From positions 1 to 64,000 of the forward strand of contig NZ_JAKFUM010000011.1 in assembly GCF_021732705.1 (NCBI RefSeq): a stretch of DNA of 64,000 nt. Reading direction: 5' to 3'. Shown one piece after another: positions 12,339 to 57,898 of the stretch (its first letter is position 1; every line of letters starts with the position of its first letter). The translations under genes were made by a program, and so were the position numbers. Source of the DNA: Nevskia sp. Its GTDB lineage: Bacteria > Pseudomonadota > Gammaproteobacteria > Nevskiales > Nevskiaceae. The notes beneath the pieces are model-generated. The model saw only the letters and a program-made list of their open reading frames with translations. It searched no databases and was not told the DNA's origin.

Positions 12339-12683
12339 ATGCCGCTGCCCCGCCCTCGCTCCGTCACCGCGCTGATCGCCTTGCTGCTGGCGACAGGCCC
12401 GGCTGTCGCGGCGCCGGCAAAGTCGCTGTCGCCGCTCGCCCTGTCGTGTCTCGCTTGTCATCAGCCGGCGGTCAATGCCGCGTCGATGCCGGCGCTGGAT
12501 CACTACGCGCCGGCGGCAATCGCTGCCTCGCTGCGTGCCGCGCGCGATCAGCCGCAACCGGGTTCGATCATGGCGCGCTTCGCCGTGAAGCTGGGCGATG
12601 CCGAGATCGAACAGCTCGCCGCCGAGCTGGGTCAAGCCACGTCCTCGTCGAAAGCGGTCGGCTCGAACGCGAAACCGCGATGA
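12339..12683 (+). CDS. Monohaem cytochrome c subunit, FccA-like
   Basis: The 114-residue protein has a signal peptide (residues 1-25), a haem-binding Cys37-Leu-Ala-Cys40-His motif and a likely Met ligand at Gly-Ser-Ile-Met about 38 residues later. Its stop overlaps the start of the flavoprotein gene (ATGA). Together they look like flavocytochrome c sulfide dehydrogenase, where the cytochrome takes electrons from the flavin subunit in the periplasm. The size fits a monohaem subunit. No ribosome site is evident before the ATG. It is distinct from the alcohol-oxidation cytochrome at 21144. Confidence 0.8.
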   Translation: MPLPRPRSVTALIALLLATGPAVAAPAKSLSPLALSCLACHQPAVNAASMPALDHYAPAAIAASLRAARDQPQPGSIMARFAVKLGDAEIEQLAAELGQATSSSKAVGSNAKPR

Positions 12684-20253: not shown

Positions 20254-21147
20254 CTACTTCAAGCCCGGCGTCTGGTAATCCATCCCGTGACGGGCGTAGA
20301 TCGCCTTCAGTTGTCCGTTCTCGATCATCGTGGCCAGCGCGTCGGCCAGCGCATCGCGCAGTTTCGGGCTGTCCCGCTTGACCGCGATGCCGATTTCCCA
20401 GGCATTGCGGAACAGACCCTGGAACTGCACCGTCTGCGCCGGCGAGGCGCGACCGTTTTCCCCATTCAGCTTCAACAGGCCCTGCAGTTCACCGCGCGGC
20501 GCGATCGTGGCATCGGCCTTGCCCGCGACAAAGGCCTTCACCGCCTCGTTCGCGGTCGGGTAGCGGTTCAGCGACTGGCGCAGCGCGCCGTCGTTGAAGT
20601 TCGTCAGGTACAGATCGGCAATCGACCCCAGTTCCACGGCGATGCGCTTGCCTTCGAGATCCTCCAGCACCGAATAGTCCGGAAACTTCTTCGGATCGAA
20701 CGACAGCGACACCGTCTCGCGGAAATAGACGCCGAAAATCCAGACCTTGTCCTGGCGCGCGACGTACTGCGGATCAGCGCCGACGTGGAGCATCACGTCG
20801 CCGACGCTGCCGCCGACGATGGTGCCGCGCCACAACTGGTTGCGCAGGTCATCGTCGAGGTCGTCGCCGGGAATGAAGGTCTTGAACGTGGCCTTCAGGC
20901 CGAGCGCTGCAGCCAGCGCTTCGCCCATCTCGACGTCGACGCCCTTGAACGCGCCATCCACCTGATACGAGTACGGCGGGAAGTCGCGATAGACCACGAA
21001 CTCGATCGCGCCCTTCTTGCGAACCAGATCGAGACGGTCGTCGCCTTCGTCAGCGAACGCCACGCCGGTCAGCAGCGTGGCCGCCAGCGCCAGTACCGTC
21101 AGGATGCCGCGTGCCAGCAACCGGACCGACGTCCGGAACAGGCTCAT
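20254..21147 (-). CDS. Quinoprotein-associated periplasmic binding protein (PedB/XoxJ type)
   Basis: The 297-residue protein has a signal peptide and an extracellular solute-binding domain of family 3. Characteristic features are Phe-Pro-Pro-Tyr-Ser-Tyr near residue 55, Gly-Val-Asp-Val-Glu-Met-Gly-Glu-Ala-Leu, and a C-terminal lobe. Proteins of this type (XoxJ/MxaJ-like) sit beside methanol and ethanol dehydrogenase genes and are thought to help dehydrogenase maturation or cofactor delivery rather than uptake. Here it overlaps the cytochrome gene by four bases. No cognate permease lies next to it. Confidence 0.85.
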   Translation of the reverse strand: MSLFRTSVRLLARGILTVLALAATLLTGVAFADEGDDRLDLVRKKGAIEFVVYRDFPPYSYQVDGAFKGVDVEMGEALAAALGLKATFKTFIPGDDLDDDLRNQLWRGTIVGGSVGDVMLHVGADPQYVARQDKVWIFGVYFRETVSLSFDPKKFPDYSVLEDLEGKRIAVELGSIADLYLTNFNDGALRQSLNRYPTANEAVKAFVAGKADATIAPRGELQGLLKLNGENGRASPAQTVQFQGLFRNAWEIGIAVKRDSPKLRDALADALATMIENGQLKAIYARHGMDYQTPGLK

Positions 21148-21593
21148 GGCTCGGTGTGGATGCTGACGAGGTAGCTGCGCAGCGCCCAGATCGCTTCTTC
21201 CTTGAAGACATCCTTGAATGCCGGCATGTAGGTCACGCCGTTGCGGATCGCGCCGCCCTGGACCTTGCCCTTGAAGTATTCGTCGGTTTCGGCGTCGGTC
21301 GGCAGGTAGCGCAGATCCGGCGCGATGCCGCCGGACACGGCGCCGAGGCCATGGCAGCGCGCGCAGTTCTGGTTGAACGCGGACGAACCGATCTTGATCG
21401 CGTCCGGGTTGCCGACGTACGGATTGCTGGTCTTCGGGCCGTCGAGCGGCGGCAGGTGTGAGACATCGACTGCCTGCGGCGTGACGTCACCATGGGCGCT
21501 GACCGCCGGGCTGTTGAACGCGAACGTGGCGACCGCGGCCACGGCAACCGCCGAGGCCAGTGCTGCGGACTTGAACATCGTGCGAATCATCAT
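21144..21593 (-). CDS. pedF: Cytochrome c-550, PedF type
   Basis: The 149-residue protein has a signal peptide, an N-terminal His-Gly-Asp-Val-Thr-Pro-Gln-Ala-Val-Asp segment and a haem motif Cys-Ala-Arg-Cys-His-Gly at about residue 80, with a Met-Pro ligand at Tyr-Met-Pro-Ala-Phe. This is the pattern of the PedF cytochrome that accepts electrons from PQQ alcohol dehydrogenases in Pseudomonas. It would relay electrons from the dehydrogenase at 21740 to the terminal oxidases. It is the first gene of the relay operon, after a terminator, so it either has its own promoter or depends on read-through. Confidence 0.88.
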   Translation of the reverse strand: MMIRTMFKSAALASAVAVAAVATFAFNSPAVSAHGDVTPQAVDVSHLPPLDGPKTSNPYVGNPDAIKIGSSAFNQNCARCHGLGAVSGGIAPDLRYLPTDAETDEYFKGKVQGGAIRNGVTYMPAFKDVFKEEAIWALRSYLVSIHTEP

Positions 21594-21739: not shown

Positions 21740-23524
21740 TTAGTTCTGCGCAACGGTGGCCTTGCCGGACTTGTGCAGCTTGAAGACCCAGAACGAGCCA
21801 CCTTGGCTGATGTCCTTGACCTTCTTGGCGACTTCGCCGCCCCAGAGCGGAACCGCACCGCCCCAGCCCGACGCGACGCCGATGTACTGCTCGCCGTCCA
21901 TTTCCCAGGTCGTCGGCTGGCCGACGACGCCCGAACCGGTCTGGAACTTCCACAGTTCCTTGCCGGTCTTGGCGTCAAACGCCTTCAGGAAGCCTTCCGG
22001 GGTACCGGTGAACACCAGATTGCCGGCGGTGGTCATGACGCCACCCCACAGCGGAGCCGGGTTCTTGTATTCCCAGACGACCTTGCCGGTGGCCGGATCC
22101 ATCGCGCGCAGCGCGCCGATGTAGTCGTCGTACAGCGGCTTGATGGTGAAGCCGGCGCCCAGATAGGCCGCACCCTTCTTGTAGGTGATCGGCTCGTTCC
22201 AGATGTCCATGCCCCACTCGTTCGCCGGCACGTAGAACAGGCCGGTCTGACCCGAGTACGCCATCGGCATCCAGTTCTTGCCGCCGAGGAACGACGGAGC
22301 GGCGAACACCGCGCTGCCCTTCTCGCCGGAACCCGGATTGCCCGGACGGTTGTTGGACTCGATCGGACGACCGGTCTTCAGGTCGACGCCCGAGGCCCAG
22401 GTCTGCTTGGTGACGAACGGGCTGGCGCTGAGCAGCTTGCCGTCAGTGCGGTTCAGAACGTAGAAGAAGCCGTTGCGGTCAGCCTTGGCGCCGGCCTTGA
22501 CGGTCTTGCCGTCCTTCTTCATGTCGAACGAGATGAACTCGTTGACGCCGTCGAAGTCCCAATGGTCGTTCGGCGTGCCCTGGTAGCTCCACTCGATCTT
22601 GCCGGTATCGGCGTTGATTGCGACGGTCGAGGTCGAGTACAGGTTGTCGCCCGGACGGGTGAAGGCATTCCACGGAGCCGGGTTGCCGGTGCCGCAGTAG
22701 ATCTGGTTGGTGTCGGCACCGTAGGTGCAGCCGAGCCAGGTGGCGGCGCCGCCGGTCTTCCACAGGTCGCCCGGCCAGGTCGCGTTGGTCTTGCCCGACA
22801 CGCCGTTTTCCTTGCCGTTCAAGTAGCCCATGTGGCCTTCGACCGTCGGACGCGTCCAGACCATCTTGCCGGTCTTGGCATCGCGTGCTTCCACGCGGCC
22901 GACCACGCCGAACTCGCCGCCGGACACGCCGGTGATCAGCTTGCCCTTCACGATCAGCGGCGCTGCCGTGTACGAGTAGCCGCCCTTGAAGTCGGCGATG
23001 GTTTCGGTCCAGACGACCTTGCCGGTGGTCTGGTCGAGCGCGACGAGCTTGGCGTCGAGCGTGCCGAAGATCACGAGGTTGTCGTACAGCGCGGCGCCGC
23101 GGTTGACCACGTCACAGCACGGCACGATGCCTTCCGGCAGGCGATGCTCATACGACCAGAGCTTGGCGCCGGTCTTCTGATCCAGCGCCCAGAGACGCGA
23201 GTACGAACCGGTGATGAAGATCTTGCCGTCGTGCACCAGGGCCTGGGTTTCCTGGCCGCGCTGCTTTTCGCCACCCATCGAGAACGACCAGGCCGGAACC
23301 AGGTCGACGACGGTGTCGGAATTGATCTGCGTCGACGTGCTGAAGCGCTGGCCGCTGAAGCCCATGCCCACCGTCAGCACATCGTTCGGCGTGTTCTGGT
23401 CGTTCGCGATCATGGCATCGGTGACCGGCACCGCGGCCACTGCCGGCAGCGCGCTCGCCGCCGCCGCCAGCCCGATCAGGCCAACGGCCCGAGCGATGCT
23501 GGTTCGTTCAATTTTGTGGTTCAT
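21740..23524 (-). CDS. PQQ-dependent alcohol dehydrogenase, predicted lanthanide type
   Basis: The 594-residue periplasmic quinoprotein has a signal peptide (residues 1-31), eight propeller blades with Trp motifs, the vicinal disulfide Cys136-Cys137 followed by Asp-Val-Val-Asn-Arg-Gly, a metal-ligand Glu near 204 and Asn281. The active-site motif is Trp322-Asp323-Phe-Asp325. The second Asp is the residue that distinguishes lanthanide enzymes (PedH, XoxF) from calcium enzymes (PedE, MxaF), so a lanthanide cofactor is predicted. It should oxidise alcohols to aldehydes and pass electrons to PedF. The ribosome site GAGGAGGAG is strong, and a sigma54 promoter match lies 73 bases upstream. Confidence 0.93.
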
Positions 23525-23596: not shown

Positions 23597-23612
23597 AGCA
23601 TGATCAATGCCA
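23597..23612 (-). promoter_or_regulatory. Sigma54 (-24/-12) promoter for the PQQ alcohol dehydrogenase
   Basis: The minus strand reads TGGCATTGATCATGCT. It has GG and GC exactly ten bases apart, close to TGGCACRNNNNTTGCW. Transcription would start about 60 bases before the ATG at 23524. Confidence 0.65.
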
Positions 23613-23897
23613 TTTAACGCAACGCAACATTCGCGTGCGCATCGCCATTGAAAGCAGCTATTCAATCCCGGCGATTCCGCTTCAAGTCCATGATTCTTCG
23701 ATAATAAATTCGACGACTCCATCAGCCGGACCGACGTCATGCGGGGGACCTTGCCAGCACGTGAACAACGGGGTCTGACGCAAGTGCCGCCAGTGTCACC
23801 AGCCGGGGACAGCCCCTTTTTCGCTGTACCGTCACCGGGACGCAAGCGCGGCGTCGACACCATCCACACGCCATGGCAAGCCATGGTGTGTCGAGTT

Positions 23898-23917
23898 TGT
23901 CACAGTGGATGACACAG
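23898..23917. promoter_or_regulatory. Candidate activator-binding inverted repeat
   Basis: TGTCACAG and TGACACAG lie 12 bases apart, centred about 300 bases upstream of the dehydrogenase promoter. TGTCA and TGACA form an inverted repeat. The same two octamers recur at 29495-29545. The position fits a sigma54 enhancer-binding site. Confidence 0.5.
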
Positions 23918-23972
23918 TTCATCGGCCGCTATCGTTCGGACTTGAGCCATGACCTCCGCCGGAATCCGGGCC

Positions 23973-24001
23973 AAAAAAAACCGGGCGCAAAGCCCGGTTC
24001 A
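23973..24001 (-). terminator. Terminator of the porin gene
   Basis: On the minus strand AACCGGGC, a short loop and GCCCGGTT are followed by a run of T, just downstream of the porin stop. It is a strong intrinsic terminator. Nothing coding is seen between it and the dehydrogenase start at 23524; that gap holds the sigma54 promoter and the inverted repeat. Confidence 0.9.
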
Positions 24002-24038
24002 ATTTGGCGCTAGGAGAGGTTCTTTATCAGCCGACGAC

Positions 24039-25268
24039 TCAGAACGACAGGAACGTGCCGATGTTGAAGTTCAGGGCTTCGTTCTTGCCGCCACCGTGAG
24101 CCTTGGCGGTCACCGACGAGATTTCGCCGACCAGGGTCAGGTTCTTCGTCAGCGAGTAGTACGCGCCGCCGGTGATCTTGCTGTTGCTGCGGACCGGCAC
24201 GCTCGACTGCAGTTCGCCATCGGCCTGACCGAGGCGGCTGGTGCCGTAGTTCACGCCGAGCTTCAGGGCGTTGATCTTGTACGACGCCTGGGCCAGATAG
24301 CCGTTGGAGCCACGGCGGCCGCCGTTGCCGTCGGAGGCGAACGCGAACAGCGCGGTCGTGCCGAGGCCCTTGCCGTAGTAGTACCAGTAGCCGAGTTCGA
24401 GGTCGGCGATGTTCAGCTTGGCGCCGGCATCGACACCGTAGCTGCGATAGTCGTCGTTGCCGCCATCGTCACGCGTCTGCTGCGTGATGAAGGTCGACGA
24501 GGCGTACAGCTTCGCTCCGCCGATGTCGGTCTTGTACGCGAGCTTGCCGTGGATGCCCGGCTGCGACTTGCGGCCCGAGCCGCCGGTCAGCGAGTTGAGC
24601 GGATCGTAGATGCCGACCGTGGCATTCAGGCCGAACAGGCTCGGCGTGGTGTAGTTGATCTGGCCGAGCGTGTCGGTATAGACGTAGCCGAGACCGATCG
24701 AGCCCAGCGTGGTGTTGGCCGGAGCGCCCGAAGCGGCGGCGCCGGCAACGCCGACACCCGGAATGGTGATGTCGTTGATGATCGCGTCGAAGCCGAACAG
24801 GCCGAAGTTGCGACCCAGCGTGAAGGTACCGATGTCCTTGTTGCCGAAGGTCAGATAGACCTGACGAACATCGAGGCCGGTGGTGCCGAGCGCCACATTG
24901 TTCTGCGGACCCACCTGGTTCGGGCTGCCGCCGTCGTTGGTGCTGATGCCCGGATAGAAGCCGAAGTGGCCTTCGATATCCAGACCGGCCTGCTTGGTGA
25001 TGATGCCGAACGACAGCGCAGCCGGCAGCAGGCCGTTGGTGACGGCGGACGCGCTCTTGGCGGTACCGCCGCCGCCGGTGCAGGCGAGGCCCGCGGCGAT
25101 GACAGCCGGCGAGCTGCTGTCGCAATCCGAGTAAACGTAATGGACGTTGATATTGCCGTTGACCGTGAACTTGTAGTCACCGGCATTGAGTTCCAGTGCG
25201 CTGGCACTGGTGGCGGACAGCATGGCCACGGCGGCCGCAATCAGATTTCGCTGGTTCGCTGCTTTCAT
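24039..25268 (-). CDS. Outer-membrane porin
   Basis: The 409-residue protein has a signal peptide (cleavage after Ala-Ser-Ala) and a body of alternating hydrophobic and aromatic strands ending in Phe, as in Gram-negative porins. It resembles the porin family that includes Ala-Leu-Glu-Leu-Asn-Ala-Gly-Asp-Tyr-Lys at the mature N-terminus. It sits in the alcohol-oxidation island and has its own sigma54 promoter match, so it may admit the alcohol or another ligand to the periplasm. Confidence 0.85.
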   Translation of the reverse strand: MKAANQRNLIAAAVAMLSATSASALELNAGDYKFTVNGNINVHYVYSDCDSSSPAVIAAGLACTGGGGTAKSASAVTNGLLPAALSFGIITKQAGLDIEGHFGFYPGISTNDGGSPNQVGPQNNVALGTTGLDVRQVYLTFGNKDIGTFTLGRNFGLFGFDAIINDITIPGVGVAGAAASGAPANTTLGSIGLGYVYTDTLGQINYTTPSLFGLNATVGIYDPLNSLTGGSGRKSQPGIHGKLAYKTDIGGAKLYASSTFITQQTRDDGGNDDYRSYGVDAGAKLNIADLELGYWYYYGKGLGTTALFAFASDGNGGRRGSNGYLAQASYKINALKLGVNYGTSRLGQADGELQSSVPVRSNSKITGGAYYSLTKNLTLVGEISSVTAKAHGGGKNEALNFNIGTFLSF

Positions 25269-25597
25269 TAGTGAATCCCCAATATTGTTGAGAGGTTGAA
25301 CGGCGCAGCCATCCACCGACCCGGTGGATCGCTCACTCCTGCCGCCACACTTCCTCTTCAGCCCCGCTGCCGTTCAGCCGTTTTGTTGAGATCGGCTTTC
25401 AGCGCGCGCGGCCCGCACAAGTGTGTCGGCGTGACCCATAGAGCAACGGCCATGCCAAGATAAATTTATCTCACAAGCTATTGTATTTATTGTTTTTTAC
25501 GATGTTCCACACGCGATGTGACAATCGCTCGTTGTTTCATTGAGGGGACGACTTTCGAGTCAGTTCCGTTACACCGCCAGCGCAGGGGTGCAAAACC
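25269..25597 (-). promoter_or_regulatory. Porin control region
   Basis: No gene is seen. Besides the sigma54 site at 25442-25457 the stretch has an unusually AT-rich block (about 25460-25500), fitting a DNA-bending (IHF-type) site, and a TGTGACA half-site at about 25514-25525. These are the usual parts of a sigma54-controlled promoter. Confidence 0.5.
25442..25457 (-). promoter_or_regulatory. Sigma54 (-24/-12) promoter for the porin gene
   Basis: The minus strand reads TGGCATGGCCGTTGCT, which differs from TGGCACRNNNNTTGCW at one position and has the correct ten-base GG-GC spacing. The leader to the ATG at 25268 would be about 165 bases. Confidence 0.75.
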
Positions 25598-27010
25598 TCA
25601 GGCGTCGCGCGAGGCCGGCAGTCGCAGCAGGATGCAGGTGCCACCGCCGGGGTTCGCGCCGAGCGTCAGCGTGGCCCCGAGGGTCTCGGCGCGCTCGGCC
25701 ATGCCGAGCAGTCCGAGCCCGACCCGCTCCGACGCCGACCGGGTCGTGCCGGCAGTGCCGGGAAGACCGCAACCGTCGTCGACGATGCGCAGCTCGATCG
25801 CGCCGTCGCTGCCCGCTTCCAGCATCAGGCTGATCCGCCGCGCACGGGCATGCCGTGTGGCGTTGGTCAGCGCTTCCTGCGCGATGCGGAACAGATACAC
25901 CTGCACCAGCGGCCCGCCCGGCACGCGGTCCAGCGCGATGTGCTGCTCGAAGCGGATCTGCGGGCAGCGCGCAGCCCAGTCCATCACCAGATTCTCGAGC
26001 GCCGGCCCCAGCCCGAACTCTTCGAGACCGGCGGGCCGGAGCCGTGCCAGCAGGCCGTGAAGGCCGTCGTAGAGGCTGGCGATGCCGGACCGGATCGCCG
26101 AGGCACGATGGGTCAGCTCCGGCACCGCGGTACCGGCCTTCTGCTGCAGCACCGCCGCCTCGGCATCCATCGCCGCGAGGCTCTGGCCGAGATCGTCGTG
26201 CAGCTCGCGGGCGATCGAGCGCCGTTCGCGCTCCTGCACTTCCAGACTGTGGCGCAGCAGGCGCTGATTGTCCGATCGCGCATGTTCGAGGCTTTCGCCG
26301 AGTTCGACGACGCTGTCGATGATCGTGCGCAGTTCCGGTGTCGTGGCCGTCGGCATGCCGGGGTGCAGCTCGCCGCGGCCGATACGAGCCAGCGCGTCGC
26401 GAATCAGGTCGATCGGCCGGAACGCGCGCCAGACCGAGAACACGACGATGGCATTGGTCAGGAAGCCGATCGCGACGATCAGCAGCAGCAGCGGCCGCGC
26501 CTCGTTCCAGGCTTCGAGGATTTCATCGGCGGGATCGGAGCGGATGACGACTGCGGCGATTCGTCCGTCGCGTCCGGTGACATTGCGCCGGAGCTCACGG
26601 GGTGCCGTGGTGACATGGGCGACGAACCAGTCCGGCACGCTGTCGTCGACCGCCGCCGGGCACCCGCGAGCCGCCGGCAGTTCGCCGACCTTCTCGACGC
26701 ACAGGTGCCGGGTGTGCTCGAACACGCCGAGCAGCACCGGCAGCAGGTCGGCGTCGGTCGCCTCGACCGGAATCGCGTGTTCGTCGAGCAGGCTCGACGC
26801 CAGCCGCATCACCGCATCGATCTCGCCCTGGACCGAACGGCGCGAGTTGCCGAGCACGGCATAGACCGCCAGCAGCAGCACGATGCCGAGCAGCAGGCCG
26901 ATCGACAGGCTGAGCCGAGTCTTGAGATCGATCCGGGTCAGCGCGCCATGCAGACGCAGTCGCGCGCGATCCACCCAGCCGGGTGGCGCCAGCGCGGCGA
27001 CGTCAGACAC
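25598..27010 (-). CDS. Sensor histidine kinase, MoxY/NarX-like
   Basis: The 470-residue protein has two membrane helices (about 33-52 and 173-194) around a periplasmic domain of about 120 residues that resembles the LapD/MoxY sensor domain and contains two cysteines. A HAMP-like linker follows, then a HisKA_3 dimerisation region (Arg-Arg-Ser-Ile-Ala-Arg-Glu-Leu-His271-Asp-Asp-Leu-Gly) and a HATPase domain ending near 465. It pairs with the response regulator upstream, overlapping by 8 bases. Similar kinases (MoxY, ExaD, PedS2) control PQQ alcohol dehydrogenases, so this one may sense alcohol, lanthanide or redox state. Confidence 0.88.
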   Translation of the reverse strand: MSDVAALAPPGWVDRARLRLHGALTRIDLKTRLSLSIGLLLGIVLLLAVYAVLGNSRRSVQGEIDAVMRLASSLLDEHAIPVEATDADLLPVLLGVFEHTRHLCVEKVGELPAARGCPAAVDDSVPDWFVAHVTTAPRELRRNVTGRDGRIAAVVIRSDPADEILEAWNEARPLLLLIVAIGFLTNAIVVFSVWRAFRPIDLIRDALARIGRGELHPGMPTATTPELRTIIDSVVELGESLEHARSDNQRLLRHSLEVQERERRSIARELHDDLGQSLAAMDAEAAVLQQKAGTAVPELTHRASAIRSGIASLYDGLHGLLARLRPAGLEEFGLGPALENLVMDWAARCPQIRFEQHIALDRVPGGPLVQVYLFRIAQEALTNATRHARARRISLMLEAGSDGAIELRIVDDGCGLPGTAGTTRSASERVGLGLLGMAERAETLGATLTLGANPGGGTCILLRLPASRDA

Positions 27011-27629
27011 GCACGACGCCGGCCACGATGGCCAGGCGCGCCATCTCGGCGGCCGAGCGCAGACCCAACTTCAGCCGGATCTGGGAGTAATGGTTGGAAA
27101 CCGTCTTGCCGCTGATGCACAGGCCGCTGGCGATGTCGCGCACCGATCGTCCTTCGGCGATCTGGCGGAAGATCTCGAATTCGCGCTGACTCAGGCGATG
27201 CAGCGCATCGTCCGGCCGCCGTTGCTGCTGTCGGGTGCCGGCCAGATCCGGCGACAGGAATTCACGGCCGTGGGCCACGCTGTCGACGGCCGCCACCAGC
27301 GTGTCGGGCGCCGAGCGCTTGCTGACATAGCCGAGCGCGCCGGCGGCAAACGCACGATTCACGAACATCGGCTCCTCGTGCACGCTGAACGCGAGGGCCT
27401 TCAAATCCGGCTGCCGCGCGCTCAGCCGGCGCAGCAGTTCGATGCCGCCGACACCGGGCAGGGACAGGTCGGTGATGACCACATCGGGCGCACATTCCAG
27501 GAAGCGGCGATACCCGCAGGCGGCCGATGACGCTTCGGCGACGACCTGATATTCGGGAGCGCACTCGAGCAACTGACGATAGCCGGCACGCACGACGGCG
27601 TGATCGTCGACCAGCAGGATACGGATCAT
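27003..27629 (-). CDS. NarL/LuxR-family response regulator
   Basis: The 208-residue protein has a receiver domain (acidic Asp8-Asp9, phosphorylatable Asp54, Lys near 104) and a C-terminal LuxR helix-turn-helix (about 145-205: Leu-Ser-Gln-Arg-Glu-Phe-Glu, Ile-Ser-Gly-Lys-Thr-Val-Ser-Asn-His). A clear AGGAG precedes the ATG. It is the partner of the downstream kinase and is comparable to ExaE, PedR and MoxX. It probably regulates genes of the island, perhaps the pair of quinoproteins or the sigma54 activator. Confidence 0.9.
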   Translation of the reverse strand: MIRILLVDDHAVVRAGYRQLLECAPEYQVVAEASSAACGYRRFLECAPDVVITDLSLPGVGGIELLRRLSARQPDLKALAFSVHEEPMFVNRAFAAGALGYVSKRSAPDTLVAAVDSVAHGREFLSPDLAGTRQQQRRPDDALHRLSQREFEIFRQIAEGRSVRDIASGLCISGKTVSNHYSQIRLKLGLRSAAEMARLAIVAGVVRV

Positions 27630-27703
27630 CGGGGTTTCTCCTCAGGCAGCGGGCGCGCTCGAATCGGCGCTTGTGTTCGTCTGTCTCAAGTCCGCGACGA
27701 CGA

Positions 27704-27731
27704 AGGCCCGGGCAAGCATCGCCCGGGCCTC
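27704..27731 (-). terminator. Terminator-like hairpin after the aldehyde dehydrogenase gene
   Basis: The minus strand reads GAGGCCCGGGC, a 6-base loop and GCCCGGGCCTTC, downstream of the aldehyde dehydrogenase stop. The stem is very stable but the T-run is weak. Confidence 0.6.
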
Positions 27732-27779
27732 GTGTCACTGACAACTATCGGCTGAAGCCAGCCGATGTCGACCGCTCGA

Positions 27780-29291
27780 TCAGTAGGCGATGCAGACAGC
27801 CTTCGTTTCGAGATAGTTGTTCAGCACCTGATGGCCCATTTCGCGGCCCCAGCCCGACTGCTTGTAGCCGCCGAACGGCATCGAAGCATCGAAGATGTTG
27901 TAGCAGTTGACCCAGACCGTGCCGGCGCGCAGGCGCGGAACCAGCTTGTGGATCTTCGACACGTCCTGCGACCAGATGCCGGCGGCCAGGCCATAGACCG
28001 AGTCGTTGGCACGACGGACCAGCTCGTCATCGACGTCGCTGAAGCGGGTGGCGACCAGAACCGGCCCGAAGATTTCTTCCTGGACGACCTTGGCGCTGTC
28101 GGCAGCGTTGATGATGACGGTCGGCTCGACGAAGTAGCCTTCGTTGCCCCAGCGGCCGCCACCGGTGGCGAGCGACGCGCCTTCGGTCTTGCCGGCAGCC
28201 ATGTAGCCCGAAACGCGGTCGAACTGGTTCTGCGACACCAGCGGTCCGAGCTGGGTCGACGGGTCGAGGCCCGGGCCCATCTTCAGGCCCTTGGCGTAGG
28301 CGGCGATGCCGGCCACGACTTCGTCATAGACCTTGTCCTGGATGAACAGGCGCGAGCCGGCGCTGCAGGTCTGGCCCTGGTTGAAGAAGATCGCGCTGGC
28401 GGCACCCGGAATCGCCTTCGACAGGTCGGCGTCGTTCAGGATGATGTTCGGCGACTTGCCGCCGAGTTCCAGGGTCAGCTTCTTCAGGTCGTTGGCGGCC
28501 GCCTTGACGATCAGCTTGCCGACTTCGGTCGAACCGGTGAAGGCGACCTTGTCGACGCCCGGGTGGCTGGCCAGCGGCGCGCCGGTGGTTTCGCCGAAAC
28601 CGGTGACCACGTTCAGCACGCCCTTCGGCAGGCCGGCTTCCTGGATCAGTTCGGCCAGGCGCAGCGCGGTCAGCGGGGTTTCCTCGGCCGGCTTCAGCAC
28701 GACGGTGCAGCCGCAGGCCAGCGCCGGAGCGAGCTTCCACGCCGCCATCAGGATCGGGAAGTTCCACGGAATGATCTGGCCGACGACGCCGATCGGCTCG
28801 CGCTTGGTGTAGGCGTGGTACTCGGTGCCCGGGGTGAACGGCACCGACAGGTCGAGCACGCCGCCATCGGCCTTGGTCGTCCAGCCGGCCATGTAGTGGA
28901 AGATGTCGGCGGCGAGCGCGACGTCGGCCACCTTGGCAACGACGACCGGCTTGCCGTTGTCGAGCGATTCCAGCTGGGCCAGCTCGTCCTGATGCTTCAG
29001 GATCAGGTCACCGATGCGATGCAGCAGCTTGCCGCGGTTCGACGGCGACATCTTGCGCCACTCGCTGTGATCGTCGAACGCGCGACGGGCCGCGGCAACA
29101 GCCGCGTTGACGTCTTCCTTGCTGCCGCTCTGGGCGTGGGCCACGACCTGACCGGTGGCCGGGTTGTAGATTTCGAAGGTTTCGCCCGACGTCGAGTTGA
29201 CCCACTCGCCGTCGATCAGAATCTTCTTCGGGCTGCTGATGAACTTGCGGGCTTCTGCGCCCAGTGCTTCCAGGCCTTTTGATCCATCCAT
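27780..29291 (-). CDS. NAD(P)-dependent aldehyde dehydrogenase
   Basis: The 503-residue cytoplasmic enzyme has the family motifs: Pro-Trp-Asn-Phe-Pro near 165, Phe-Thr-Gly-Ser-Thr-Glu-Val-Gly, the general-base Glu in Leu-Glu-Leu-Gly-Gly-Lys-Ser-Pro-Asn and the catalytic Cys in Gln-Gly-Gln-Thr-Cys-Ser-Ala-Gly. It would oxidise the aldehyde made by the PQQ dehydrogenase to the acid. The start at 29291 is set by AGGAGA seven bases upstream; a longer form from 29330 is possible. A sigma54 promoter match lies about 100 bases upstream, and the gene is divergent from the sigma54 activator. Confidence 0.93.
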   Translation of the reverse strand: MDGSKGLEALGAEARKFISSPKKILIDGEWVNSTSGETFEIYNPATGQVVAHAQSGSKEDVNAAVAAARRAFDDHSEWRKMSPSNRGKLLHRIGDLILKHQDELAQLESLDNGKPVVVAKVADVALAADIFHYMAGWTTKADGGVLDLSVPFTPGTEYHAYTKREPIGVVGQIIPWNFPILMAAWKLAPALACGCTVVLKPAEETPLTALRLAELIQEAGLPKGVLNVVTGFGETTGAPLASHPGVDKVAFTGSTEVGKLIVKAAANDLKKLTLELGGKSPNIILNDADLSKAIPGAASAIFFNQGQTCSAGSRLFIQDKVYDEVVAGIAAYAKGLKMGPGLDPSTQLGPLVSQNQFDRVSGYMAAGKTEGASLATGGGRWGNEGYFVEPTVIINAADSAKVVQEEIFGPVLVATRFSDVDDELVRRANDSVYGLAAGIWSQDVSKIHKLVPRLRAGTVWVNCYNIFDASMPFGGYKQSGWGREMGHQVLNNYLETKAVCIAY

Positions 29292-29394
29292 TTTTCGATC
29301 TCCTCGTGCATTGTTTGGGGTGACGGACATACTGCCGGCGATGTTGCGCCGGGTGCGTGGACTCTACACCCGGGCATCGCAACGAACCGCTGAT

Positions 29395-29410
29395 GGCAAG
29401 AACCAAGCCA
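29395..29410 (-). promoter_or_regulatory. Sigma54 (-24/-12) promoter for the aldehyde dehydrogenase
   Basis: The minus strand reads TGGCTTGGTTCTTGCC. TGGC and TTGC are exact and the GG-GC spacing is ten bases. Confidence 0.65.
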
Positions 29411-29494
29411 GCCGCCCGCGCGCCTGAAAAAATGAATCAACTGCCTGTTTTTTCTCAAGTTGCTGACGATGTACCGAGGTGGTGCACCCCCTGC

Positions 29495-29545
29495 TGTCAC
29501 AGCCGCGGCGCGTGCGCCGGCATCGGTGTTGCAGGGCTGACACAG
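29495..29545. promoter_or_regulatory. Candidate activator-binding site pair
   Basis: TGTCACAG (29495-29502) and TGACACAG (29538-29545), the same octamers as at 23898-23917, lie about 85-150 bases upstream of both sigma54 matches in this region. The flanks TGTCACAGCC and GGCTGACACA also form an inverted repeat. Confidence 0.5.
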
Positions 29546-29625
29546 TGGTGCGCCTTCGGGCGGCAGACGGGCCGACGGCCGTCCGCTTTTCGTTGACCGG
29601 GGGCGATTCCGGGTCTACCGTGCCT

Positions 29626-29641
29626 TGGCATCACAGTTGCT
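29626..29641 (+). promoter_or_regulatory. Sigma54-like promoter before the activator gene
   Basis: TGGCATCACAGTTGCT has the ten-base GG-GC spacing and lies about 100 bases before the activator ATG. It would imply autoregulation, which is less usual for such activators. Confidence 0.5.
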
Positions 29642-29742
29642 TGGGCCGCGCGTATGCGGGTTCGCGGGCACCGGCATCGACCAGAAAGAACACAACAAGC
29701 CCCGTGACGACGAGCGCGGGGAGTGCGATGAGGAGCGATGAG

Positions 29743-31818
29743 ATGGGCGACAACGCCGCCGTACAGCATGCCAATGGCGTGCTGCGGTTGATCAATGGCG
29801 ATGGCATGGCGCGGACCGGGCTCGATGAAGCCGTTCGCGTGTCATGGCAGCGCTGCCTCAACGAATTCCAGCTCGATCCTGCACGGCTGCATGCACCAAG
29901 CGTGATCAACAGCAACAACCTCAAGGATCTGCAGGCGCGCCACGACGAACTGGTGGAAATCGCCCGGGCCGAGATGGATACGCTGTACGACCAGATCAGC
30001 GGCTCCGGCTACGCGCTGCTGCTGACCGATGCCAAGGGCATCATCCTGACCGAAAAGGTCGATCCGACGCTGACCAAGATGTTCCGCAGCGCCGGCCTCA
30101 TCGTCGGCGCCGAATGGAGCGAGAAGAGCGAAGGCACCAACGGCATCGGCACCTGCATCGCGGAAGGCCGCTCGATCACCATTCACCGCAACGATCACTT
30201 CCGCGCGCGCCACATCGGCCTGTCGTGCTCCGGCTCGCCGATCCGCGACATGAACGGCAACATGATCGCCGTGCTCGATGCCTCGTCCGTCGGCAGTCAC
30301 GACACCCGCGCCAGCCAGATGCACACGATGGCGCTGGTCAACACGTCGGCGCGGCTGATCGAGAAGTGCCTGTTCCTGCGCCGCTGCCAGCCGTACCGCA
30401 TCCTGCGATTCCACAGCCGCCCGGAATTCGTCAACCTGCTGCATGACGCGGCGCTCGCGCTGACCGAGGACGGTCACGTCGCCGCCGCCGACGACATGGC
30501 CGTGTCGCTGCTGTCGGCCCCGAGCCGCGCCAGCCTGATCGGCCGGCCGGTCAGCGAACTGTTCGATCTTGGCGAGCTGGAACTCGAACAACTGGTGACC
30601 ACGCGTCAGGCGCTGCTGCCGATGCGCGACCAGCGCTTCGGCCGGCGCTTCTTCGTCACTCTCGCGCCGCCGCAGATGCTGACTCGCCTCGTCGATTCCG
30701 GCGATCGCCCGCGCCGCTCGATGCCGGAGCGCGTCCAGATCACGCCGGCACCGCTGATGACGGCGCTGTCGCTGGAGGATCTCGCGGGCCAGGATCCGCA
30801 GATGCTGCAGAACATCCGCACCGCACGCCGGCTGGCCGATTCGCGGGTGCCGATCCTGATCCAGGGACCGACCGGCTCGGGCAAGGAAGTGTTCGCCAAG
30901 GCCATTCATCTGGCCAGCAGCCGCGCGTCGCAGCAGTTCGTCGCGGTGAACTGCGCGGCCATTCCGGAGACGCTGATCGAATCCGAACTGTTCGGCTACA
31001 AGGCTGGCGCCTTCACCGGCGCGCGCAAGGAAGGCATGCGCGGCCGCATCGTGCAGTCCTCCGGCGGCACGCTGTTTCTCGACGAAATCGGCGACATGCC
31101 GCTGAACCTGCAGACGCGCCTGTTGCGCGTGCTCGAAGAACAGGAAGTGGTGCCGCTCGGCTGCGAGCAGGCCGTGAAGGTCGAGCTGAGCGTGGTCAGC
31201 GCCTCGCACCGCAACCTGCAGGACATGATCGCCCGCGGCGAATTCCGCGAAGACCTGTACTACCGACTCAACGGCATGACGCTCGAGCTTCCGGGGCTCA
31301 AGGACAGGGTCGACGCCGAAAGCCTGATCCGCCGCTTCATCGCGCTCGAAGCCCGCGCCGGGCAGGCCGTGTCGATCGAGGCCGACGCCTTCGAGAGTCT
31401 CGTCAGCTACGACTGGCCGGGCAACATCCGCGAACTGCGCAATGTCATCCGCACGGCGCTGGCGATCTGCGAGAACGGGGTGATCCGGAGCGTGGACCTG
31501 CCGCGCACTGTGTCGCACCGCCAGCGCAAGCCGGGCCTGCCGACCCCCGCCGCGGCGCTGCCGGCACCGGCGGTGACGGCAGCGGTCAGCACCCCGGAGG
31601 CCCTGCCGGCACCGCCGAGCCTGCAGGCCGTCGCAGGCGTCAATCCGCTGGAAGCGGCCGAGCGCGGCGCGATCCTGAGGGCGGTCGAAAGCAATGCCTG
31701 GAACATGACCTTGACCGCGCGCGAACTCGGCATGAGTCGCAACACGCTGTATCGCAAGCTCAAGCGGCACAGCATTCCCGTGGGCGATGCGCGGCGCGAC
31801 GATCTGTCCCGGATGTGA
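29743..31818 (+). CDS. Sigma54-dependent activator, AcoR-like
   Basis: The 691-residue protein has an N-terminal GAF sensor region (about 50-215), a degenerate PAS-like part (about 225-300), an AAA+ domain with Walker A Gly-Pro-Thr-Gly-Ser-Gly-Lys-Glu (about 374) and the sigma54-contact motif Gly-Ala-Phe-Thr-Gly-Ala (about 423), and a Fis-type helix-turn-helix at the C-terminus (Ala-Arg-Glu-Leu-Gly-Met-Ser-Arg-Asn-Thr-Leu-Tyr). Related activators (AcoR, BmoR) respond to acetoin or alcohols. It lies between the aldehyde dehydrogenase and pqqA, both with sigma54 promoter matches, so it is the prime candidate to activate the island. The start is set by AGGAGC six bases upstream. Confidence 0.92.
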   Translation: MGDNAAVQHANGVLRLINGDGMARTGLDEAVRVSWQRCLNEFQLDPARLHAPSVINSNNLKDLQARHDELVEIARAEMDTLYDQISGSGYALLLTDAKGIILTEKVDPTLTKMFRSAGLIVGAEWSEKSEGTNGIGTCIAEGRSITIHRNDHFRARHIGLSCSGSPIRDMNGNMIAVLDASSVGSHDTRASQMHTMALVNTSARLIEKCLFLRRCQPYRILRFHSRPEFVNLLHDAALALTEDGHVAAADDMAVSLLSAPSRASLIGRPVSELFDLGELELEQLVTTRQALLPMRDQRFGRRFFVTLAPPQMLTRLVDSGDRPRRSMPERVQITPAPLMTALSLEDLAGQDPQMLQNIRTARRLADSRVPILIQGPTGSGKEVFAKAIHLASSRASQQFVAVNCAAIPETLIESELFGYKAGAFTGARKEGMRGRIVQSSGGTLFLDEIGDMPLNLQTRLLRVLEEQEVVPLGCEQAVKVELSVVSASHRNLQDMIARGEFREDLYYRLNGMTLELPGLKDRVDAESLIRRFIALEARAGQAVSIEADAFESLVSYDWPGNIRELRNVIRTALAICENGVIRSVDLPRTVSHRQRKPGLPTPAAALPAPAVTAAVSTPEALPAPPSLQAVAGVNPLEAAERGAILRAVESNAWNMTLTARELGMSRNTLYRKLKRHSIPVGDARRDDLSRM

Positions 31819-31987
31819 CACAACGACCGTTTCAGGCAGCGCCGTGACAATTTGCCGTCGTCTCGAAAAGGCCGTGAAAAAGACCTTGATTCGCGCGTCG
31901 GAAACGGCTTAAATTCCAGCAGTGACAGGGACTTGCGAAGAAGCAATTCGCACCATTGAATCATACGATTGGGAACTAATCCTGACG

Positions 31988-32003
31988 TGGCATAGTCTCT
32001 GCA
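31988..32003 (+). promoter_or_regulatory. Sigma54 (-24/-12) promoter for pqqA
   Basis: TGGCATAGTCTCTGCA has GG and GC ten bases apart and matches TGGCACRNNNNTTGCW except at two positions. Transcription would start near 32014, about 50 bases before pqqA. GTGACA motifs just after the activator stop (about 31814-31852) may be binding sites. Confidence 0.7.
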
Positions 32004-32066
32004 CTGTCGGGATGTCCTTTAAGGGCATGCTGGCAAAATCACTGCGATCAGACGGAGGAATCAATC

Positions 32067-32141
32067 ATGCGTTGGACGAAGCCGAGCTTCACCGAAATGC
32101 GTTTTGGCATGGAAGTGACGATGTACATCCTCAACCGCTAA
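32067..32141 (+). CDS. pqqA: PQQ precursor peptide PqqA
   Basis: This 24-residue peptide is the substrate from which pyrroloquinoline quinone is made. It has the conserved Glu16-Val-Thr-Met-Tyr20 motif: PqqE crosslinks the Glu and Tyr side chains, and these two residues become the cofactor. The N-terminus (Met-Arg-Trp-Thr-Lys-Pro) and Arg at the end are also typical. A strong GGAGGAA precedes the ATG. A terminator-like hairpin follows, so pqqA mRNA should exceed that of the other pqq genes. Confidence 0.97.
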   Translation: MRWTKPSFTEMRFGMEVTMYILNR

Positions 32142-32297: not shown

Positions 32298-33212
32298 ATG
32301 AAAATAAGAATTCTGGGTTCCGCGGCGGGAGGAGGATTCCCCCAGTGGAACTGCAATTGCGAAACCTGCGCCGGCCAGCGTAGCGGCACTCTGCTGGCAA
32401 CGGCCCGCTCCCAGTCGTCGATCGCGGTCAGCGACAACGGTCAGGACTGGGTGCTGATCAATGCATCGCCGGACATCCGTTCGCAGATTCTGGCCACGCC
32501 GGACCTGCAGCCGAACCGTGCCCTGCGCGATACCGGGATCAAGGCCGTGTTCCTGATGGATGCGCAGATCGATCACGTGACCGGTCTGCTGATGCTGCGC
32601 GAGTCCAAAGTCCGGCTGCCGATCTACTGCTCGGCGCGGGTCAAGGCCGATCTGACATCCGGCTTCCCGATCTTCAACATCCTCGAACACTACTGCGGTG
32701 TCGACTGGCACGACGTGAAGCCGGACGGCACGACGTTCACCGTCGACGGCATCGATCACATCGAGTTCGCGCCGTTCGCGCTGACCAGCAAGGCGCCGCC
32801 GTATTCGCCGCATCGCGCGAATCCCGCGCCCGGCGACAACCTTGGCCTCGTCATCCGCAGCACACGCACCGGCAAGCAGGCGCTGTACGCGCCGGGTCTG
32901 GGCGTGATCGAGCCACCGGTCGAGCAGGCGATGCGCGAAGCCGACCTGATCCTCGTCGACGGCACGACCTGGACCGATGACGAGATGAGCCGTCGCGGCG
33001 TTGGAAGCAAGCTCGCGCGCGAGATGGGGCACCTGTATCAGTCCGGCCCCGGTGGCATGCTCGAAGTGTTGAGCGCCTATCCGAACGCGCGGCGCGTGCT
33101 CATCCACATCAACAACACGAACCCGATCCTCGTCGACAACGGCCCCGAGCGCGCGCTGGTGGCGCAGCATGGTGTCGAAGTGGCGCAGGACGGCATGGTT
33201 TTCGAACTGTAG
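32298..33212 (+). CDS. pqqB: PQQ biosynthesis protein PqqB
   Basis: The 304-residue protein has the metallo-beta-lactamase fold of PqqB and its N-terminal zinc site (Asn-Cys-Asn-Cys-Glu-Thr-Cys, about residues 18-24), followed by [11 protein letters not shown]. PqqB is thought to hydroxylate the excised Glu-Tyr intermediate before PqqC acts. Length is normal for the family. It is cytoplasmic and 10 bases upstream of pqqC. No good ribosome site is visible before the ATG. Confidence 0.97.
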
Positions 33213-33222
33213 GAGTCGGGCA

Positions 33223-34011
33223 ATGAACGCATCGGTCGATACCTCCAATCTGCCGTGGACCAAGGAAGAGTTCGCGGCCCGGCTCAAGGCCTTCGAGCCG
33301 TACTACCACATCCACCATCCGTTTCAGGTGGCGATGAACAGCGGCAAGCTGTCGAAGGAAGCGGTTCAGGGCTGGGTGCTCAATCGCTTCTATTACCAGA
33401 CCGCGATTCCGAACAAGGACGCCGCACTGCTGGCCAACTGCCCGGATCGCGAAGTCCGCCGCCGCTGGATCCAGCGCATCATCGATCACGATGGCAACGA
33501 TCAGGTCGAAGGCGGCATCGAGCGCTGGGTCCGGCTTGGCGAAGCGGTGGGACTCAAGCGCGAGGACATCGTCAGCCACCGCTACGTGCTGCCCGGCGTG
33601 CGTTTTGCCGTTGATGCCTACGTCAACTTCGTGCGCCGTGCGTCGTGGCAGGAAGGCGTGGCGTCGTCGCTGACCGAGCTGTTCGCGCCGTCGATCCACA
33701 AGGAACGCATCTCCGAGTGGCCGAAGCACTATCCGTGGATCGAAAGCAGCGGGCTCGACTACTTCAAGGGCCGCGTGCAGGAAGCGCATCGCGACGTGCA
33801 GCACGGCCTGGGTTTGACTCTGGATCTGTTCGTCACCCGCGCCGAGCAGGAACGTGCGCTCGAGCTGTTGAAGTTCAAGCTCGACATCCTGTGGACCATG
33901 CTCGATGCCATGACCATGGCCTACGTCAAGAACGAGCCGCCGTATCACTGCGTGACCGGCTTCGCGCAGGGCATGAACGCCGCCGAGATCAGCGGAGCGG
34001 CGCATGTCTGA
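33223..34011 (+). CDS. pqqC: Pyrroloquinoline-quinone synthase PqqC
   Basis: The 262-residue protein is PqqC, the cofactor-less oxidase that performs the final ring closure and oxidation to PQQ. Family features are Tyr-Tyr-His-Ile-His-His-Pro-Phe near residue 28, Asn-Arg-Phe-Tyr-Tyr-Gln, Asp-His-Asp-Gly and Arg-Val-Gln-Glu-Ala-His-Arg-Asp. AGGAG lies nine bases before the ATG. It overlaps pqqD by eight bases. Confidence 0.97.
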
Positions 34012-34312
34012 GCCGGACAAGAAGATCGAGTACGCCACCGAATACAAGCCGCTGCACGATGGGCCGATCAGGCTCGCGCGCGGTCATCGCATCCAGTACG
34101 AGACCGTGCAGGGCTGCGATGTGCTGCTGTATCCGGAAGGTGTGGTCCAGCTCAGCGAATCCGCCGCGATGATCCTGAAGACCGTCGACGGCCAGAAGTC
34201 CGCGACCGAGATCGCGGCCGCGCTGATGGCGCAGTTTCCCGAAGCCGGCGACATTTCCGGCGATGTGAAGAGCTTTCTGGAGGTAGCCCATGCACGAGGG
34301 TGGATCGCCTAG
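34004..34312 (+). CDS. pqqD: PQQ peptide chaperone PqqD
   Basis: The 102-residue protein is PqqD, the RiPP recognition element that binds PqqA and presents it to PqqE. Typical segments are [15 protein letters not shown], Leu-Ser-Glu-Ser-Ala and Ile-Leu-Lys-Thr-Val-Asp-Gly. It overlaps pqqC by 8 and pqqE by 23 bases, indicating tight coupling. Confidence 0.95.
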
Positions 34313-35456
34313 TCCAATCGCGATGCCGGCGATCAAGCCGCCGCTGTGGCTGCTCGCCGAGCTGACCTATGCCTGTCCGCTGCAGTGCGCGTACTGCTCG
34401 AATCCGGTCGATTTCAACGGCCACGGCAAGACCATGGACACGGAGACCTGGATTCGCGTGCTGCGCGATGCCCGCTCGATGGGCGCGCTGCAGCTTGGCC
34501 TGTCCGGCGGCGAACCGCTGGTGCGTCAGGACCTCGAAACGCTGGTCGCGGAGAGCACCAAGCTCGGCTACTACTCGAACCTGATCACCTCGGGCATCGG
34601 CATGGATGCCGCCCGCGCCCGTTCGCTGAAGGCGGCCGGCCTCGACCACATCCAGGTCAGCTTCCAGAGTTCGGAAGCCAATCAGAACGACGAGATCGCC
34701 GGCATGCGCGCCTATGCGCACAAGCTGGACATGGCGCGCGCGGTCAAGGCCGCCGGCTTCCCGATGGTGCTGTGCTTTGTCCTCCACCGGGACAACCTGC
34801 ATCGCCTGCGCGAAATGCTCGATCTGGCGATCGAACTGGAAGCCGATTACGTCGAGCTGGCGACCACGCAGTACTACGGCTGGGCGCTGCTGAATCGCGA
34901 CCGCCTGCTGCCGACGCTTGAACAGGTTCGCGAAGCCGAAGGCGTTGCCAACGAGTATCAGGCGCGCCTCAAGGGCAAGATGGACATTTACTTCGTGGTG
35001 CCGGACTACTACGAGAAGCGTCCGAAGCCGTGCATGAACGGCTGGGGCTCGGTGTTCCTGCTGGTGACGCCGGACGGCACCGCCCTGCCCTGCCACGCCG
35101 CGCGCCAGCTGCCGGGCTTCGAGTTCCCGAACGTGCAGACCTCGTCGGTCAAGGACATCTGGCAGACCTCGGATGCCTTCAACCGCTTCCGCGGCTTCGG
35201 CTGGATGAAGGAGCCGTGCCTGTCGTGCCCGGAGAAGGAAAAGGATTTCGGCGGCTGCCGCTGTCAGGCCTTCCAGTTCACCGGCGATGCCGCCGCCACC
35301 GATCCGGTCTGCGACAAGTCCCCGCTGCGGCATCTCGTCGATGAAGCCGTCTCCAGCGCCCGCAGCACGACGATCGAAAAGCCGATCATCTTCCGCAATC
35401 CGAAGAATTCTGACCGGCACGCAATCAAGCTCGCGGAATTGACGACGCCGAGGTAG
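34290..35456 (+). CDS. pqqE: PqqA peptide cyclase PqqE (radical SAM)
   Basis: The 388-residue radical SAM enzyme forms the Glu-Tyr carbon-carbon bond in PqqA. The SAM [4Fe-4S] motif is Cys29-x3-Cys33-x2-Cys36, followed by Gly-Gly-Glu-Pro-Leu, and the C-terminal SPASM cysteines are present (Leu-Pro-Cys-His-Ala and Cys-Leu-Ser-Cys-Pro ... Gly-Gly-Cys-Arg-Cys). The start within pqqD is the first ATG; one at 34323 is possible. The operon ends here without pqqF, so the protease that trims the peptide must lie elsewhere. Confidence 0.97.
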   Translation: MHEGGSPSPIAMPAIKPPLWLLAELTYACPLQCAYCSNPVDFNGHGKTMDTETWIRVLRDARSMGALQLGLSGGEPLVRQDLETLVAESTKLGYYSNLITSGIGMDAARARSLKAAGLDHIQVSFQSSEANQNDEIAGMRAYAHKLDMARAVKAAGFPMVLCFVLHRDNLHRLREMLDLAIELEADYVELATTQYYGWALLNRDRLLPTLEQVREAEGVANEYQARLKGKMDIYFVVPDYYEKRPKPCMNGWGSVFLLVTPDGTALPCHAARQLPGFEFPNVQTSSVKDIWQTSDAFNRFRGFGWMKEPCLSCPEKEKDFGGCRCQAFQFTGDAAATDPVCDKSPLRHLVDEAVSSARSTTIEKPIIFRNPKNSDRHAIKLAELTTPR

Positions 35457-57813: not shown

Positions 57814-57898
57814 GGCGGGCCTCAGCGGTCCTTGAAGTTCGTTGTTCGGTGGATGGCGACACCGGAGCGGGTGTCAGTGTGTCAGTGGTGAAACAAGT

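Follow-up and report, generated by a model that had tools for sequence, protein, structure and literature searches.

Background

Most descriptions of how the pyrroloquinoline quinone (PQQ)-dependent alcohol dehydrogenases are regulated involve LuxR-type or two-component regulators, in Pseudomonas and in methylotrophs. In Pseudomonas a single LuxR-type regulator, AgmR/PedR1, is reported to link the pqq operon with the ped genes (PMC12997753). Sigma54 dependence has been reported for a PQQ alcohol dehydrogenase, ExaA of Azospirillum brasilense Sp7 (PMC12826043), whose gene is stated to depend on sigma54 together with a LuxR-type regulator (PMC6115532). Sigma54 control of one PQQ dehydrogenase and the joining of ped and pqq genes under one regulator are thus both already reported. 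Here we analyse a 64,000-nucleotide stretch of Nevskia sp. (assembly GCF_021732705.1, bases 1-64000 of contig NZ_JAKFUM010000011.1, our contig C6, in a genome of 4.53 Mb and 28 contigs), referred to below as the window, in which an island of alcohol oxidation genes carries five sigma54-type promoter sites and encodes a sigma54 activator. Our results suggest that the island is probably a sigma54 regulon run by its own EatR-type activator. Itself probably induced by the aldehyde product, this activator would govern the making of the cofactor, two steps of oxidation and possibly uptake.

The EatR regulon of Pseudomonas aeruginosa resembles this locus in having a GAF/AAA+/helix-turn-helix sigma54 activator encoded divergently from an aldehyde dehydrogenase gene, the same class of palindrome and a -24/-12 promoter; EatR targets the ethanolamine operon, whereas the targets here would be the pqq genes, the genes of a PQQ alcohol dehydrogenase and of an aldehyde dehydrogenase, and a porin-like gene. 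EatR is reported to be required for the sigma54 promoter of the ethanolamine operon and to respond to acetaldehyde, not to ethanolamine (PMC5821096). The ped/exa loci of Pseudomonas (AgmR/PedR1/ErbR, PedS2-PedR2, EraSR), as the reports describe them, share with the island a PQQ dehydrogenase, a PedF cytochrome, PedABC-kind ATP-binding cassette (ABC) genes and the linking of cofactor and oxidation by one regulator; however, the master regulators described there are LuxR-type, whereas here we find conserved sigma54 sites and an enhancer-binding activator. The exaA gene of A. brasilense Sp7 likewise encodes a PQQ alcohol dehydrogenase described as sigma54-dependent, but its reported partner is a LuxR-type regulator. 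BmoR of Thauera butanivorans is alike by description, being an alcohol-linked sigma54 activator with an upstream activating sequence (PMC8899819), but is described as controlling butane monooxygenase.

In the literature that was searched, which was mostly non-subscription, no sigma54 regulon joining pqq genes, a PQQ dehydrogenase and an aldehyde dehydrogenase was found, which is weak evidence that this one is new. With its candidate enhancer motif and with aldehyde as the candidate signal, a conserved regulon of this kind under sigma54 would be a testable alternative wiring for PQQ alcohol oxidation, and the relatives that lack the activator offer a natural comparison. It may also provide an explanation for the sigma54 requirement of Azospirillum exaA; since the homologous dehydrogenase gene of A. 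lipoferum 4B has no site scoring at least 9 in the upstream 800 bp that were scanned, the link to Azospirillum remains a precedent from the literature.

Sigma54 sites and their conservation

An earlier note on this DNA had described five sites of GG-N10-GC spacing, each upstream of its gene, four of them beginning with TGGCAT. All five were found, each facing its gene and with TGGC and TGC-type cores, the aldehyde dehydrogenase site being the one that begins with TGGCTT. They lie about 60 to 175 bases from their genes, with the pqqA start taken as 32067. The scores below come from a matrix whose frequencies were set by hand and whose cut-off of 12.5 was placed just below the weakest of the five sites.

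23598-23612, minus strand: sigma54 -24/-12 site of the PQQ dehydrogenase gene (TGGCATTGATCATGC, score 13.8)
25443-25457, minus strand: sigma54 site of the porin-like gene (TGGCATGGCCGTTGC, score 15.1)
29396-29410, minus strand: sigma54 site of the aldehyde dehydrogenase gene (TGGCTTGGTTCTTGC, TGGCTT, score 12.7)
29626-29640, plus strand: sigma54 site of the activator gene (TGGCATCACAGTTGC, score 14.9)
31988-32002, plus strand: sigma54 site of pqqA (TGGCATAGTCTCTGC, score 15.6)
32031-32045, plus strand: sixth sigma54-like site, probably unproductive (TGGCAAAATCACTGC, score 10.3)

The genes of the island are the following.

21740-23524, minus strand: PQQ-dependent alcohol dehydrogenase, PedH-like, with a DFD motif (TIGR03075, 782 bits, cut-off 480)
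24039-25268, minus strand: putative porin-like outer-membrane protein (sub-threshold OmpG-porin match PF16946 and sequence appearance)
25598-27010, minus strand: sensor histidine kinase (HisKA_3, HATPase_c)
27003-27629, minus strand: LuxR-type response regulator (Response_reg, GerE)
27780-29291, minus strand: aldehyde dehydrogenase (Aldedh, 606 bits)
29728-31818, plus strand: EatR/AcoR-like sigma54 activator (GAF PF01590, Sigma54_activat PF00158 and HTH_8 PF02954, all over cut-off)
32067-32141, plus strand: pqqA, 24 amino acids (TIGR02107, 50.2 bits, cut-off 20)
32298-35456, plus strand: pqqB, pqqC, pqqD and pqqE (TIGR02108, TIGR02109, TIGR02111 and TIGR03859, each above cut-off)

Scans against shuffled controls, of the kind that the earlier note had proposed, and against a reversed pattern gave a divided answer: the placement of the sites in the intergenic regions of the island is beyond chance, while their total count in the window is unremarkable. 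The bare pattern TGGCAN{6,8}TGC occurs 13 times in the window against 11.2 expected, and the five matrix matches of at least 12.5 are unremarkable in number beside a shuffle mean of 3.03 (maximum 8). All five, however, fall within the 1,460 bp that make up four intergenic regions of the island, where 1000 shuffles placed a mean of 0.107 and a maximum of 2. Genome-wide, TGGCATN6TGC was counted 47 times against 10 for the control read backwards, and four of the 47 lie within the 8.4 kb of the island. Because the bare pattern is no more frequent than expected, we rely on placement and conservation rather than on counts.

Conservation was assessed in loci from 26 of the 38 genomes that match the activator at E 1e-100, among 85 genomes searched in the order. 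At all five promoters the seven core letters are invariant (7/7) across 7-8 members of the genus, compared with 14-45% of flanking columns (dehydrogenase 18/97, porin 28/95, aldehyde dehydrogenase 14/103, activator 15/104, pqqA 45/101), in an alignment that was anchored on the site and so favours it somewhat. A site scoring at least 10.5 stands upstream of the porin gene in 20/20 rows (all at least 12.9), of pqqA in 12/12 (all at least 11.9), of the aldehyde dehydrogenase gene in 15/16, L055 being the failure and rows L003 and L005 having genes only 44% identical, and of the PQQ dehydrogenase gene in 17/19, counting rows L005, L055 and L056 with genes about 39-42% identical and L056 as a second locus of the same genome. 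Four of the five sites are therefore kept widely in the order, and the activator's own site is the exception. At the locus L056, on contig C18 of the window's own genome, a second activator paralogue (44%) accompanies a distant PQQ dehydrogenase (39%), whose gene is preceded by a strong sigma54 site of its own (16.2).

The genome has three rpoN-type genes (PF04552 matches; G000 C1:508863, C8:184290 and C6:148669), and at least one was present in each of the 85 genomes searched in the order, many having two or three. The sixth site, at 32031-32045 and absent from the earlier note, was considered as a tandem second pqqA promoter and rejected. Its RNA start, predicted from the usual spacing to be near 32057, would fall on the pqqA ribosome-binding site, so that it is probably not productive; it is present in four of the seven other congeners scored and missing in L001, L006 and L040.

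A shared palindrome upstream of the sites

The same promoters share an enhancer-like element. CTGTCAC/GTGACAG was the most enriched 7-mer, present in 57 of 91 upstream regions where 4.3 were expected, and TGACACA/TGTGTCA was found in 52 against 4.85, divergent regions having been entered twice in both counts. Motif fitting to 75 non-duplicate regions gave a 20-base palindrome, CTGTSNCR-N4-YGNSACAG; L044, L056, stretches of up to 100 bases and those activator stretches that duplicate an aldehyde dehydrogenase stretch were left out of the training. Symmetric runs started from off-centre seeds returned unrelated G+C-rich palindromes and were discarded. A matrix built from the 45 regions outside the genus reached a score of 12 in 23 of the 30 genus regions and in 5 of 400 random segments, and the reverse training on the 30 genus regions recovered 15 of the 45 against 4 of 400. 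In the window, the copies, listed without strand, are as follows.

23793-23812: enhancer-like palindrome, weak (score 11.4)
23824-23843: enhancer-like palindrome, weak, 31 bp from the copy at 23793-23812 (score 12.4)
23886-23905: enhancer-like palindrome upstream of the PQQ dehydrogenase gene (score 18.4; p 0.005 with the out-of-genus matrix)
25532-25551: possible enhancer-like palindrome of the porin-like gene, weak (score 9.8)
29494-29513: enhancer-like palindrome, weak, common to the divergent genes (score 9.7)
29526-29545: enhancer-like palindrome common to two divergent genes, those of the aldehyde dehydrogenase and the activator; 32 bp from the copy at 29494-29513 (score 17.2; p 0.01)
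31804-31823: enhancer-like palindrome of pqqA that overlaps the stop codon of the activator gene (score 20.0; p 0.005 with the out-of-genus matrix)

The eight core letters of the palindrome are invariant in the genus at all five promoters, the porin copy included (8/8 in seven congeners), and p 0.05 is reached in five of the seven porin regions of the genus.

Three further matches lie elsewhere in the window. One, a strong copy at 12206-12225 (score 20.5), precedes a flavocytochrome c sulfide dehydrogenase-like gene (12281-13972, plus strand), with only a weak sigma54-like site (10.6) at 12310. A palindrome-like match at 27681-27700 (15.3), in the gap that separates the response regulator gene from that of the aldehyde dehydrogenase, has no sigma54 site. 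At 57877-57896 a palindrome-like match of 17.1 again has no sigma54 site nearby, and two of the local open reading frames tried had no Pfam match at E 1e-8.

The activator and its relatives

The activator has a GAF domain, a sigma54-interaction domain of the AAA+ type and a Fis-type helix-turn-helix, and its start codon is at 29728 or 29743. The domains are over cut-off and the GAFTGA loop can be read in the sequence, which bears out the proposal that an AcoR-like sigma54 activator is encoded amid the sites. The named relatives that it finds are Hydrocarboniphaga and Solimonas species, together with two metagenome assemblies at 82-83% identity. In a plasmid collection 296 records match it at E 1e-60, the best being an annotated eatR. 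That eatR is divergent from an aldehyde dehydrogenase gene across a 338-base intergenic region, in which a sigma54 site scores 13.2 and two palindromes, spaced 34 bases apart, score 14.1 and 11.6; the first palindrome was equalled in 3 of 2000 shuffles and both together in none of 2000. The recognition-helix region SRNTLYRK is common to the window activator and EatR, and SR(N/K)TLYR occurs in every listed activator C-terminal region, that of eatR among them. From these likenesses and the reported acetaldehyde response we infer that the window activator recognizes palindromes of this type and responds to an aldehyde or an alcohol. In a tree of 39 activators EatR stands beside L079 on the side of the PQQ-linked activators; its root was placed arbitrarily and the branch leading to EatR is long, so we draw no conclusion on origin from it.

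Three relatives allow the promoter to be viewed where the activator is missing. G030, G031 and G032 retain a dehydrogenase 74-78% identical and have rpoN, with no activator match at E 1e-100; at E 1e-40 their matches are mostly confined to the AAA+ and helix-turn-helix part, the longest having 34% identity (G031). Upstream of their dehydrogenase genes, sigma54 scores peak at 6.3, 7.2 and 2.5 and palindrome scores at 0.1, -1.3 and -1.2; none of these beat shuffles or improved at 1 kb. Conversely, dehydrogenase or porin genes that are separated from the activator by about 12-33 kb, or by being on a different contig (L071, L072, L074, L075 and L077) retain sigma54 sites, scoring 13.3-16.6 for the dehydrogenase and 14.9-17.2 for the porin where present, with palindromes from 9.0 to 21.8. 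A second dehydrogenase copy in L068 (54% identical) has a palindrome-like score of 11.8 and no sigma54 site (5.2).

Beyond the order, 369 genomes of the class were drawn; 14 match the activator at E 1e-160, 11 of them from outside the order, and 10 of these were examined. PQQ genes are present in the stretch at three of the 10 loci (L078, L079 and L081), with upstream sigma54 scores of 13.3-16.9. Among 11 loci, scored with partial matches uncorrected, the palindrome upstream of the activator beats at least 496 of 500 shuffles in six (L079, L082, L083, L084, L086 and L087) and is not beyond shuffles in L056, L078, L080, L081 and L085; L080 has a copy scoring 14.2 further upstream of its activator.

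The two-component pair

The earlier note had contrasted the island with the two-component control usual for exa/ped loci. This contrast is wrong, because the island itself holds a histidine kinase and a LuxR-type response regulator and because sigma54-dependent exaA has been reported in Azospirillum. The two genes sit between the porin-like gene and the aldehyde dehydrogenase gene; the regulator begins 151 bases past the latter, and the kinase has in addition a weak LapD/MoxY_N match (21.1 bits, below the cut-off of 25). In the genus, none of the seven kinase rows and none of the seven regulator rows has its own sigma54 site of at least 10.5. A site is present in the loci in which the first gene opposite the activator is the regulator itself (L042 13.7, L043 13.8, L050 12.6), and in L049 the regulator scores 10.7. 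Kinase rows L046 and L047 score 10.7 inside the preceding coding region, and a kinase score over 10.5 in L002 was discarded as an artefact of a wrongly cut upstream stretch. The lack of an own site, the 151-base gap and the presence of a site when the regulator comes first suggest that the pair is expressed within the regulon, probably as a second tier downstream of the aldehyde dehydrogenase. This would resemble the control of pedS2R2 that is reported for PedR1 (PMC13390443).

A regulon model and its alternatives

The steps that follow, which concern binding, use of sigma54 in the cell, the inducer and the place of the two-component pair, we infer from the computed sites, their conservation, the shared palindrome, its association with the activator and the protein families. 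The EatR-type activator would bind the palindromes, which precede the -24 elements by about 70 to 290 bases; inducer binding by the GAF domain would then allow the AAA+ domain to open sigma54-RNA polymerase at four promoters, those of pqqA, the PQQ dehydrogenase, the aldehyde dehydrogenase and the porin-like gene. In the closest species, and in some others, it would do so at the activator's own promoter too. The inducer would most likely be the aldehyde made by the dehydrogenase (or else an alcohol), such that the product of step one would induce cofactor synthesis, step one and step two together. That one sigma factor links PQQ synthesis, a porin-like gene and the two oxidations, as had been proposed, is supported by conservation, by the shared palindrome and by the activator-less relatives; the uptake part of that proposal is unproven. 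More tentatively, and with somewhat less than even confidence, an EatR-type aldehyde sensor may have been recruited in Nevskiales as the master switch of lanthanide-type PQQ alcohol oxidation, with the aldehyde product inducing cofactor synthesis and both oxidation steps, the two-component pair subordinate, and presence or loss of the activator deciding whether the dehydrogenase has a sigma54 promoter.

Several observations weigh against such a regulon. The palindrome matrix was learned from these same promoters, and the starting seed of the cross-trained runs came from the full set. At the porin-like gene of the window the palindrome is weak and not significant (p 0.119). The strict palindrome occurs at six places in the genome against seven per strand for the reversed control, so that the pattern by itself is not enough to delimit the regulon; three of the six places fall in the window, one of them beside the flavocytochrome gene. 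The dehydrogenase site is poor in L048 and L049 (scores 4.1 and 8.5), and the activator's own site reaches 10.5 in just 11 of 27 rows, so that autoregulation is not general. Identity to EatR is just 44.7%. The dehydrogenase of G061 (L076) has a site of 15.8 and a palindrome of 18.1, yet a search of this genome, which is in 190 contigs, found no orthologue of the activator. Outside the order, the palindrome was not seen at L078 and L081 despite their sigma54 sites, while it is clear at the L079 activator (14.4).

It is very improbable that the sites arose as chance matches from the high G+C content of the genome. The counts of the bare pattern, which are alike in the window and in shuffles, would fit this explanation, but placement, orientation, conservation and absence without the activator all contradict it. 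A different possibility is that the sigma54 promoters are real and take their main input from the island's two-component pair, as with EraR in Azospirillum, the EatR-like protein serving mainly the aldehyde dehydrogenase. The presence of a LuxR-type regulator and kinase inside the island would fit, as would the reported need of exaA for sigma54 and a LuxR-type regulator (PMC6115532). However, the eatR locus and several other activator homologues have the regulon's palindrome as well, and two of the three genomes without activator and sigma54 sites (L069 and L070) still carry a similar regulator and kinase near the dehydrogenase. LuxR-type regulators moreover lack the AAA+ domain that opens sigma54 promoters. 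We therefore consider this explanation unlikely. Whether the EatR-type activator would sense the aldehyde or, like BmoR, the alcohol itself is a closer question. BmoR is reported to be an alcohol-responsive sigma54 activator (PMC6366067, PMC8899819) and was weighed by description, whereas EatR, which of the named relatives found is the nearest, is reported to sense acetaldehyde and has its gene divergent from that of an aldehyde dehydrogenase, as here; alcohol sensing is thus a plausible alternative, though not the one we favour.

Other genes of the island

Porin identity and an uptake role for the gene at 24039-25268 are not proven. Its product had no family match at E 0.001 and no solved-structure match; against PF16946 it gave E 0.054 and 13.2 bits, below the cut-off of 23, and by eye it has a signal-like N terminus and a C-terminal F. 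For the aldehyde dehydrogenase, no specific NCBIfam model scored above its cut-off among the matches listed (25 of 43). More ped-like genes, all on the minus strand, lie at 16599-18566, 21144-21593 and 36869-40621, comprising a second PQQ dehydrogenase, a cytochrome PedF and PedC/PQQ_ABC-type transporter genes; no sigma54 site of at least 12.5 lies near them.

The best solved-structure matches of the PQQ dehydrogenase (P0002) are 6zcv and 6zcw, named as quinoprotein ethanol dehydrogenase and presumably PedH. At the metal site both have DFDG, as does the window enzyme, whereas DFSG stands there in ExaA (1flg), so that in the window enzyme an aspartate replaces the serine two residues after the catalytic aspartate. 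The serine is reported to mark calcium enzymes and the aspartate to mark PedH (PMC5487730). By its aspartate the dehydrogenase is predicted to be of the lanthanide-dependent PedH type. Among the copies in relatives, D-x-D is found in all 24 with a readable motif at 62% identity or above and DFSG in all six at 52-56%, one truncated copy (L042) being unreadable at the motif. Because L051 and L076 are of the serine type and have good sigma54 sites, sigma54 control does not appear to be tied to the metal. These two calcium-type (DFSG) dehydrogenases come from genomes of two families and have near-identical palindromes along with their sigma54 sites, which hints at transfer of the gene together with its promoter.

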